Positions 7,246 to 39,194 of a DNA stretch of 41,322 nt are shown piece after piece. The notes below the pieces were generated by a model. The model saw only the letters and a list, made by a program, of their open reading frames with translations. It was not told the origin of the DNA and did no database searches. The translations under genes and the position numbers were made by a program. This stretch comes from Candidatus Pacearchaeota archaeon. Its GTDB lineage: Archaea; Nanobdellota; Nanobdellia; Pacearchaeales; GW2011-AR1. The first letter of the stretch is position 1; each line of letters begins with the position of its first letter. The stretch lies in NCBI GenBank assembly GCA_017609915.1, contig JAFCDA010000007.1, forward strand, positions 1 to 41,322, read 5' to 3'.

Positions 7246-7406
7246 AATTTTTAAACAACTTATAAGTTTAAAAATATAGTTGAGATAAGATGTAATATTT
7301 TAAAGATGTTACAAAATATAAATCTTATATGATAATGAAACCCATTCATAATATGCTATATTAAGATATAAAAATCTTTATAATGAAAAAGAACTAATTT
7401 TAAAAA

Positions 7407-11272: not shown

Positions 11273-11929
11273 ATGGATTCATTTATAAAAAAAATTTGGC
11301 AAGGAAATGGAGAAGAAGCACATTATCAATTTACTAGATTTAGTAAAGGAAGATTTGAGGGTAGAGCTGTTTTAAATTTACATAGAACTTCTAAAATTAA
11401 GTTAAAAGGTAGTTTTGAATGGGCTAATGATTTTGTTAATCTTGCTAATGAATCAGGAGATATAAAATTTTCTGGGATTGTGTTAAGTAGGGAAGAATTA
11501 GACTTAGAAAATGAGAAAAAGAAAAAAGCTGTTTTTCAATATGAGGTTTCAGATATTGACTCAGAAAAAATAAATGAAATAAAAGACAAAGCTTATGCTT
11601 TATTATTAAGTGGGCAAGGAGAAGAAATTCTTTTAAAAATTAAGAAAAAACTTCCAAAACCAGGAAAAAGTAAAGATAAGGTTGATGATAAGTTTTGTCA
11701 GCTTGAATTAAATCTAAATCAATGGGATAAAGTTAAAGATGCATTTATGTTTCCTGAATGTAAGAAATACAGAGTATCCCATATATTTGAAATAAATGAA
11801 ATAGTTATCCCGGAAGGAGAAAAAGATTTTGAAAAAGTAAGACTTTCTGCAAAAAGAAAAGGAAAAATTATTAGAAAAATAGAAGTTGATAAACGAGAAA
11901 GTGAAGATGAGAAAGAGTTTGAGGTGTGA
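11273..11929 (+). CDS. Conserved-looking hypothetical protein
   Basis: 218-aa uninterrupted ORF; family not recognised. Confidence 0.55.
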   Translation: MDSFIKKIWQGNGEEAHYQFTRFSKGRFEGRAVLNLHRTSKIKLKGSFEWANDFVNLANESGDIKFSGIVLSREELDLENEKKKKAVFQYEVSDIDSEKINEIKDKAYALLLSGQGEEILLKIKKKLPKPGKSKDKVDDKFCQLELNLNQWDKVKDAFMFPECKKYRVSHIFEINEIVIPEGEKDFEKVRLSAKRKGKIIRKIEVDKRESEDEKEFEV

Positions 11930-17522: not shown

Positions 17523-17930
17523 ATGGAAGAAAAATTTAAACTAACAAAGAAAGAATTTAAGTACAGAGGAAAAACTATGGAAGAATTAAATCACATGGAT
17601 ATTCGGGAATTTGCTAGATTACTTAAATCAAATGAAAGAAGAACAGCATTAAGACAATCTGATGAATTACAAAAATTCGTTTTAAAATGTAAAGATAAAG
17701 CTTTGAAAAAAAGACCAATAAAAACTCATTCAAGATACTTGGTAATTGTTCCTCAAATAGTTGGATTAAGAATTAGTGTTTATAATGGAAGAGAATTTGT
17801 TCCTGTTCAAATTGAAAAAGAAATGTTAGGACATAGATTAGGAGAATTTTCTGTTACTAGAAATAAAGTTAAACATGGAGCAGCAGGGGTTGGTGCAACT
17901 CGTTCAAGCTCTTCTCTAAGTGTGAAGTAA
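17523..17930 (+). CDS. rps19: Ribosomal protein uS19
   Basis: RYLVIVPQIVGLRISVYNGREFVPVQIEKEMLGHRLGEFSVTR. Confidence 0.95.
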   Translation: MEEKFKLTKKEFKYRGKTMEELNHMDIREFARLLKSNERRTALRQSDELQKFVLKCKDKALKKRPIKTHSRYLVIVPQIVGLRISVYNGREFVPVQIEKEMLGHRLGEFSVTRNKVKHGAAGVGATRSSSSLSVK

Positions 17931-34426: not shown

Positions 34427-36426
34427 ATTAAACAAAAAAATGGTTGAAGGAATAGAATTAAATGTTGGAAGCATAGATGTTAGTAATACTGATATTAAAA
34501 AAGATAATGATAAACAAGAAGAAACAATAGAAGAGAATTTTATTGAAGATACTAGAGGGGAAATTAATATAGAACAAACAGAAAAGATTATTAAAGAAAG
34601 AAAAGAGAAAATACTTGGTTTTTTTAAGGCAAAAAACCTTTGGGTTATTATTCTCTTACTAATTGCTGTAATTTTAGGTATTTATCTTAGAAGTATGCCT
34701 ATGCTAGATCATGGAGGAAATCCTGGTTTATGGGATATTACTACAAATACATGGACTTTAGGACCTGATTTAGATCCTTGGTTATTTTTTAGATATACTA
34801 AGACAATTGTTGAGCAAGGAGGTTTACCAGAAGTAGATATGATGAGAAATGTTCCTTTAGGATTTGATACTTCTATAGAAACCCCTCTATTACCCTATAT
34901 GATTGTATGGACTTATTCTTTTTTAAATATTTTTTCAGATGTTAGCGTTATTTATGCAGCTGCTATTTTTCCTGTAATAATGTTCGCACTGACAATAATT
35001 GTTTTTTTTCTTTTTGTCAGAGAAATCTTTATTAGAAAAACTAAGGAGAGTAAGGTTAAAGCTAATATTATTGCATTAATTTCTAGTTTTTTTATGATAG
35101 TTATTCCTGCGTTTTTATCAAGAACAATAGCAGGAATTCCTGAAAAAGAATCTACTGCTTTCTTTTTTATGTTTCTTGCATTTTATTTGTTTTTAAAAGC
35201 ATGGAAATCTGAAAATTTAAAAAAAGCTATAATTTTTGCTATTTTAGCTGGAATTGTTACTGCTTTAATGAGATTAGTTTGGGGCGGGGTTCTTTACTTA
35301 CTCTTAACAATCGCACTTGCTAGCTTTGTTTCATTTATCTTAAATAAAATTCATAAAAAAGAATTTATAGTATATTCTTCCTGGCTTTTTGTTTCATTGA
35401 TATTAATATTTTTCTTTTTTTCAAATAAAATTCCATTAGTAGATTTAATTTTAACAAGTTTAGATACTGCAGTTTGTTTTTTAATTTTTTTAATCTTTTT
35501 AATACATTTTATTATATGGAACACAAAATTATCTAAACTTAAAATACTTGAAAAAATCAAACTTCCTAAAAATATTATTTCAATGATTATTGCATTTATT
35601 TTTATTTTTATTTTGATATCAATTATTTTAGGTCCTAGTTTTATTGTTAGTCAAGTAAATAGAGTACATCAAATAATTTTTAAACCAACTTATGGGAGAT
35701 GGGGAGTAACTGTTGCTGAAAGTAGGCAGCCTTTTTTTACAGAATGGGGGGCAAGTTTTGGTCCGTTTATAAAAAATATTCCTGTGTTTTTTTGGTTATT
35801 TTTTGCTGGTTCTGTTGTTTTATTTAAAAAAATGTTAAATAAAATTAAACAAAAAGATTCTTGGATTTTAACAGGAACCTATTTTTTATTTTTAATAGGA
35901 ATAATATTTTCAAGATATTCTAGCTCAAGTATTTTTAATGGGAGTAGTTTTATTAGCAAGTCTTTTTATTATATTTCTGCTTTAATTTTAATTGGTTCTT
36001 TAATTTATTATTATATAAAATACCATAAAGAAAGAGATAATGGTTTTGAACAAATAGATTATAAATTATTAATTTTGTTTGCATTATTTATTCTTGGTTT
36101 ATTTGGTGCAAGAAGTGCTATAAGATTAATCCTAGTATTAGCTCCTATAACTACAATTTTTGTTGGTTATTTGATTGTAGAATCAATTAGTAGATTTAGA
36201 AAAACAGATGGTGAAATTGGAAAAATTATTTTAGGCACATTAATTATATTAATTTTATTATTAAGTATTTTTGCTTTTTACACATTTTATCAGGGGGTTA
36301 AAGCTCAATCATATGGTATGGTTCCTTCTTCTTATAATCAACAATGGCAAAAAGCAATGAAATGGGTAAGAGAAGAAACACCTAAAGATGCTGTTTTTGG
36401 GCATTGGTGGGATTATGGTTATTGGG

Positions 36427-36478
36427 TGCAAAGTATTGGAGAAAGAGCAACTTGCAAAGTATTGGAGAAAGAGCAACT
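36427..36478 (+). repeat. Exact 26-bp tandem duplication in STT3
   Basis: TGCAAAGTATTGGAGAAAGAGCAACT x2 (36427-36452, 36453-36478). Confidence 0.95.
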
Positions 36479-36635
36479 GTTTTAGATGGAGGTAATGCAA
36501 TTGTATATTGGAATTATTTAATGGGTAGGCATGTGTTAACAGGAGATAATCAAAAAGATGCTTTAGAATTTTTATATAACCATAATACAACTCATTTGTT
36601 GATTGATTCTTCAGATATTGGAAAATATGGTGCTT

Positions 36636-36661
36636 ATTCAAGTATTGGATTCAAGTATTGG
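36636..36661 (+). repeat. Exact 13-bp tandem duplication in STT3
   Basis: ATTCAAGTATTGG x2 (36636-36648, 36649-36661). Confidence 0.95.
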
Positions 36662-37436
36662 CAGTAATGAAGATTATGATAGAATTTCTGGAATTGGTGT
36701 TTTTACTTTAGATGAATCACAAACACAAGAAACACAAGATCAAATCATGTTTGTTTATTCTGGAGGTATTAGTCTTGATGAAGATTTAATAATTAATGAA
36801 AATGGAAAAGAAATTTTGCTTCCAGCAGGAAGTTCAGGAGTTGGTGCTATAATTTTGCCTATTAAAAACACTGGAAATCTAAATGATGTTTCAAAAGCAG
36901 GTCAACCATATATTGTCATAGTATATCAAGGATTACAGCATAAAGTAAATTTAAGATATTTATATGCTGGTGGAGAATTTATTGATTTTGGTTCTGGAAT
37001 TGAAGCTTGTGCCTATATTTTTCCAAGACTTCTTTATCAATCACAAGGGCTTAGTTCAAATCCAATTGGTGCTACTATGTTTATTTCTCCAAGATTAATG
37101 AGAGGTATGTTTTCTCAAGTTTATCTTTTAAATGACCCTTTGAATAATTTCCCTAACTTTAAATTAACTCATTCTGAACCTAATTTTATTATAGATGATT
37201 TGAATCATCAAGGGATGAATTTGCCTGAGATTATATTTTATTCTGGTATTCGAGGACCAATAAAAATCTGGGAAATTGAATATACTGGACAAGAACAAAT
37301 CAAAGAAGAATATTTAGATAAAGATTATTCTAAGTATATAGATTGGAGATTGTGATAGTTTTGTACAGAAAATTTAATCAGAACTCTTTCCCTTTAGATG
37401 ATTTTATTATGAAGTGGGGGTTTTTAAATTTAAGAA

Positions 37437-38267: not shown

Positions 38268-39194
38268 TTAAAACAATCCTCCTCTAAAAATAATTAAAGC
38301 TAATAAACAAAGGATTATTTGAAATATAAATATTAAATATGTGACATCTCTTTCATATACTTTTCTTTTGAATTTCTTTAAAATAAGTAAGGATAAATGA
38401 GTCAAACCATAAATCTTATTATGGGGCATTTCTAAACTTCCATCTTTTTGAGGAATAAGAAAAGATTGTTTTTTTAATCTGCCTCTTAATTTTAAAATTA
38501 CTTCAAGAATATAAGGAATAAATATAAAAATTGCTATTTTTTCAAAGTTTCCTAAAATAGCCATAATAGCAATTAATGCACCAATAGCCCATGTTAAAGA
38601 ATCTCCTGGGAAAACCTTTGCATGTGGTTTATTATAGATATAGAAAACTAATAAAGAGACAACCATGCATAATCCAATTAAAGCTAGCCAAGAAGAACCA
38701 CTAACATAAGCTATAAATGATAAAAAACTCAAGATTATGATTCCTTGTCCAGATTCTAAACCCCCAAGTCCTGCTAAAAAATTATAACTAGTTGTTGCTC
38801 CAACAACCCCTAATGGGACTATTAATAAAGGATATAAGATTCCAAATTCTACTGTTCCTAAAAACAACTAATGGAATTGAAGCTAAAAAAGCAAGAAAGA
38901 GTCTAAATCTTGCAGAAATTCCTCCATGTTGCCATCCAAACAAATCATCAACAATACCAAGAAGAGCTAAAATTAATATAACACTTAATAATGCAAATAT
39001 GTCCAAGGTTGTTGTATTGCTCTTTAGAATAAATGTTTTTATTGCAACATAAGATAAAACCCCTAAAACAGATTGAGTTTATGCATTTCTTCCCATAAAA
39101 GCCCAACCCTCTTACATTTTTTTATCCATTTTGGAAGAATTAGAGCAGTTAAGATAAAGCTGATAAGTAGTGGTGTTATTAAGATTATGTCCAT
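38268..39194 (-). pseudogene. GPT/MraY-family GlcNAc-1-phosphate transferase-like gene, broken into fragments
   Basis: N-fragment MDIILITPLLISFILTALILPKWIKKCKRVGLLWEEMHKLN-stop; ORF 39006-38788 (LLGIVDDLFGW); ORF 38867-38268 (VEFGILYPLLIVPLGVVGATTSYNFLAGLGGLE..HAKVFPGDS). Confidence 0.75.

Follow-up and report, generated by a model that had tools for sequence, protein, structure and literature searches.

Does this archaeon carry a broken, a switchable or an unusually decoded gene for its oligosaccharyltransferase STT3, or is it the assembled sequence that is at fault? The window, by which we mean the whole stretch of 41,322 nucleotides that was analysed, belongs to a Pacearchaeota-like draft genome of 521319 bases in 27 contigs, with an estimated completeness of 64.65%. 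Within the window, the STT3 gene is split into three open pieces by two exact tandem duplications, whose junctions enclose a short island.

34440..36485, forward strand: N-terminal part of STT3 (archaeal oligosaccharyltransferase) with the WWDYG motif, an open frame of 681 aa (PF02516)
36404..36667, forward strand: middle piece of STT3 in a shifted frame, an open frame of 87 codons that relatives match at 72-86%
36603..37355, forward strand: C-terminal part of STT3 in the original frame again, 250 aa, open, matched by relatives
36427..36478, forward strand: exact tandem duplication, two copies of a 26-bp unit (Tandem Repeats Finder, 100%, no microhomology)
36636..36661, forward strand: exact tandem duplication, two copies of a 13-bp unit (Tandem Repeats Finder, 100%, no microhomology)
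36453..36648, forward strand: 196-bp island from the second 26-bp copy to the first 13-bp copy, delimited by the coordinates of the two junctions

The N-terminal part scored 63 bits against PF02516, for which the cut-off is 24.5, and its translation contains HWWDYGYW directly upstream of the 26-bp duplication. The gene shares with archaeal STT3/AglB (PF02516) the N-terminal membrane domain, the WWDYG motif and the conserved C-terminal part, but differs in that its frame is interrupted twice, and in this assembly only. Most of the full-length STT3 relatives listed have open frames of approximately 900-1000 aa; here, a continuous frame of that length is broken at 36427-36485 and at 36636-36667, while the flanking pieces are still well conserved and carry no further lesion.

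The preliminary description of this region had reported the 26-bp and 13-bp duplications, and both are correct to the base: Tandem Repeats Finder returned a period of 26 for the first and of 13 for the second, each with 2.0 copies and a 100% match, and the spacer between them is 157 bp. It had also stated that the additional 39 bp restore the register although frame 0 has already ended at 36485, which the sequence bears out. Frame 0 passes through WWDYG, enters QSIGERATCKVLEKEQLF and terminates at the TAG at 36483-36485, whereas the C-terminal part is back in the first frame. The register is thus restored in the DNA, yet because the TAG precedes the second duplication, a ribosome would make no full-length product.

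Given the size and base composition of the window, the chance expectation of such an exact duplication is approximately 1e-9 for 26 bp and 0.006 for 13 bp, and the STT3 duplications are not explained by chance. In both of them, and in a third duplication of 11 bp on another contig, the copies are identical and the matching run is exactly one period long, so the junctions are blunt and there is no microhomology. A DNA alignment of the window with 14 relatives placed both insertions in the window alone, with a single copy at the 26-bp site in all 13 relatives aligned there and at the 13-bp site in all 14. A motif common to both units (AAGTATTGG) was considered as a shared target and set aside, because the 9-mer recurs across the genome, with 11 occurrences over the two strands.

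These properties bear directly on phase variation, in which the 26-bp and 13-bp repeats would be gained and lost by slippage, switching N-glycosylation on and off. STT3 is a surface-modification enzyme, and slippage can remove adjacent exact repeats. However, a phase-variable tract would be multi-copy or flanked by microhomology and kept in relatives, and what we found at each site is two blunt copies only, with no repeat in the aligned relatives. Two independent repeats would furthermore need to switch jointly, and the companion deletions described below cannot revert. We therefore regard reversible slippage, which the preliminary description had proposed, as very improbable.

A duplication scan of the whole assembly, together with a frame-change search using the proteins of relatives, identified a total of seven frame-breaking lesions in five genes. 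Two of these lesions lie 1.5 kb downstream of those in STT3, in a second gene that is also interrupted twice.

38268..39194, reverse strand: glycosyl transferase family 4 gene (polyprenyl-phosphate sugar-phosphate transferase type), broken by two deletions (PF00953, 73.2 bits)
39071..39073, reverse strand: deletion junction, lacking approximately 49 bp that most relatives have (DNA alignment with relatives)
38864..38866, reverse strand: deletion junction, lacking approximately 35 bp that most relatives have (DNA alignment with relatives)

The corresponding frame changes, at approximately 39070 and 38860, are each backed by 20-21 relative proteins. The two deletions jointly restore the register of the glycosyl transferase, and the island between them measures 208 bp (38865-39072).

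The remaining lesions are on other contigs. The sole PCNA gene of the genome (contig C16, 11547-12271), whose N- and C-terminal domains each gave one match in the genome, has a 7-bp deletion at position 11745 in the DNA alignment with relatives; this length, like those of the glycosyl transferase deletions, is measured against other species and not against the same strain. On the same contig, 3.8 kb away, the third frame-breaking exact duplication (11 bp, blunt, C16:15525-15546) interrupts a large gene for a cysteine-rich surface protein, for which the best relatives have open frames of approximately 1150 aa, and the 11-bp unit is present as a single copy in the DNA of one relative. Lastly, a gene for a LamG-like surface protein on contig C20 (approximately 7322-7352) has a frame-breaking deletion at 7340 in comparison with its homologues. 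Each lesion in the assembly lies towards the end of its contig, within the final third: at 36.4-39.1 of 41.3 kb in the contig of the window (C18), at 11.7-15.5 of 18.4 kb in C16 and at 7.3 of 9.2 kb in C20.

Could STT3 and the neighbouring glycosyl transferase nevertheless be true pseudogenes of recent origin in this population, so that a reduced archaeon has lost N-glycosylation? The two broken genes near this end of the contig fit one pathway, and the duplicated copies are identical and hence young. A further STT3, which the preliminary description had suggested looking for, was sought across the assembly and none was found, PF02516 being matched once only. Absence also has some precedent among relatives: the N-terminal part was matched in 50 of the 55 genomes searched (that of the window included), leaving five with no match, and among 181 family genomes the C-terminal part was matched in 163, in most cases within open frames of at least approximately 900 aa, leaving 18. 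However, the family genomes with no match are incomplete drafts, and the C-terminal part is present in every one of the 17 family genomes whose completeness is 90% or higher and whose contamination does not exceed 5%. Similar lesions in the sole PCNA gene and in surface-protein genes on other contigs also count against decay of a single pathway. On balance we consider recent inactivation unlikely, and somewhat less likely still the stronger proposition that paired lesions in STT3 and the glycosyl transferase have recently cost a population of this archaeon its N-glycosylation, at a time when the duplications are still perfect. Were the lesions real, N-glycosylation would have been lost in an archaeal family in which nearly all members retain it.

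Programmed recoding is a further way in which an interrupted gene could remain functional: the ribosome might bypass from copy 1 to copy 2, or the extra copies might be spliced out as tiny mRNA introns. Matched copies would supply matched take-off and landing codons, and the frames on either side are conserved. The bypassing of T4 gene 60 depends on an arrangement of take-off codon, stop and hairpin (PMC8211752). The STT3 duplications resemble the T4 gene 60 and mitochondrial byp elements in having matched sequence that flanks an in-gene insert, but here the arrangement of take-off codon, stop and hairpin is absent, the insert is missing from every aligned relative and is therefore not conserved, and companion deletions are present. 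Neither site showed a stable RNA structure; the z-scores of +1.2 to +1.5 denote folds less stable than those of most shuffled sequences. Recoding could not, moreover, restore the bases that are missing from the PCNA and glycosyl transferase genes, and it is the least probable of the explanations considered here, to the point of being negligible.

Of the three options offered in the preliminary description, assembly error was named last and has emerged as the best supported, with a third blunt duplication and four frame-breaking deletions now found in other conserved genes of the same assembly. Because similar blunt duplications and deletions have also struck other conserved genes, among them the sole PCNA gene, it is highly probable that both STT3 duplications are assembly artefacts in a thinly covered part of the draft genome. 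A broken sole PCNA gene is implausible in a living cell, and this lesion strongly disfavours a literal reading of the sequence. The duplications are real in the sequence file, but most likely not in the organism.

Our data are consistent with a model in which neighbouring short contigs were joined end to end without proper overlap. Contig ends that had 26, 13 or 11 bp in common would have had these bases written twice, giving a perfect tandem duplication; where the ends did not meet, approximately 7, 35 or 49 bases would be missing, giving a deletion. The 196-bp island between the STT3 junctions may then have been a separate short contig. A single cause of this kind would cover the blunt duplications, the deletions of similar size, the clustering of the lesions, their disregard of essential function and the islands of 196 and 208 bp. 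Within the organism, STT3 is probably unbroken, and its product would be an ordinary archaeal oligosaccharyltransferase of roughly 950 residues. The joining mechanism, the particular assembler step, the thin coverage and the intact cellular gene are what we infer from the assembled sequence. On the other side of the argument, short blunt tandem duplications also arise as real mutations, and two of the broken genes, which plausibly belong to one pathway, lie within 3 kb, a pattern that pathway decay would produce as well.

Unmerged overlaps at contig boundaries are known to give rise to tandem false duplications after scaffolding (PMC8081667). Those homotype duplications are like the present ones in that sequence common to two contig ends is written twice to yield a perfect tandem duplication, but they are approximately one read long with a gap between the copies, whereas the duplications described here are 11-26 bp long with no gap written. 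Many apparent prokaryotic pseudogenes have likewise been attributed to assembly errors and tied to assembler and coverage (PMC11017572). As in that study, conserved genes here seem frameshifted in one draft, an effect that is more frequent at low coverage; the study dealt with bacterial genomes, in contrast to our draft of an uncultured archaeon. Our literature search found no paper on Pacearchaeota together with oligosaccharyltransferase, and none on tandem duplications in misassembled metagenome genomes.

The contigs contain no internal N that would point directly to a scaffold join; N is absent from the assembly except for one contig, every letter of which reads N. Scattered N bases in one relative from the same genome collection indicate that the collection itself does not strip them. 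Named relatives in this collection carry labels such as Candidatus Pacearchaeota or Nanoarchaeota archaeon; none of the relatives is a close strain suitable for comparison, the top DNA match being only 76% identical. No match linked the STT3 region to a phage.

Similar lesions, which in the assembly of the window extend to unrelated essential genes, are rare in the matched parts of relatives. Frame-breaking exact duplications of at least 10 bp numbered three in 518 kb of the genome of the window, whereas 953 kb of six relatives contained none. For all frame changes in matched coding DNA, the counts were seven in 307 kb versus three candidates in 937 kb, where the control consists of parts of the six relatives, whose assembly methods are unknown, and the more sensitive search covered three of them. 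The excess of frame changes corresponds to a P value of approximately 0.003 per lesion, which assumes independent lesions, an assumption violated by their clustering, and of 0.026 by gene. Two of the three candidates in the relatives proved spurious on inspection, leaving one convincing frameshift in their matched regions (L116:8271, relative G006). Possible frame changes at L044:8001, L049:5655 and L066:680, each backed by just one weak match, were left out of the count, and candidates at position 17536 of the window and at L064:10604, L099:13875 and L116:10644 were dismissed as effects of gene overlap or gene fusion. The RNA polymerase B gene of relative G044 (L124/L125), which appears split across two frames at an internal point, was also rejected as a lesion and is probably a natural gene split.

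Frame-broken genes in this draft should consequently be treated with caution, and not be taken as gene loss or switching. More generally, faulty joins can usefully be suspected wherever conserved genes show blunt tandem duplications along with short deletions.

Several minor features were observed along the way. The frameshifted gene at L116:8271 encodes a secreted or membrane protein and has a tandem paralogue. In relative G016 (L098-L107), isolated N bases number in the hundreds and form clusters, which looks like masking of polymorphic sites in that assembly. Lastly, a 68-bp unit is repeated exactly, in approximately 2.5 copies, at L044 7637-7804.
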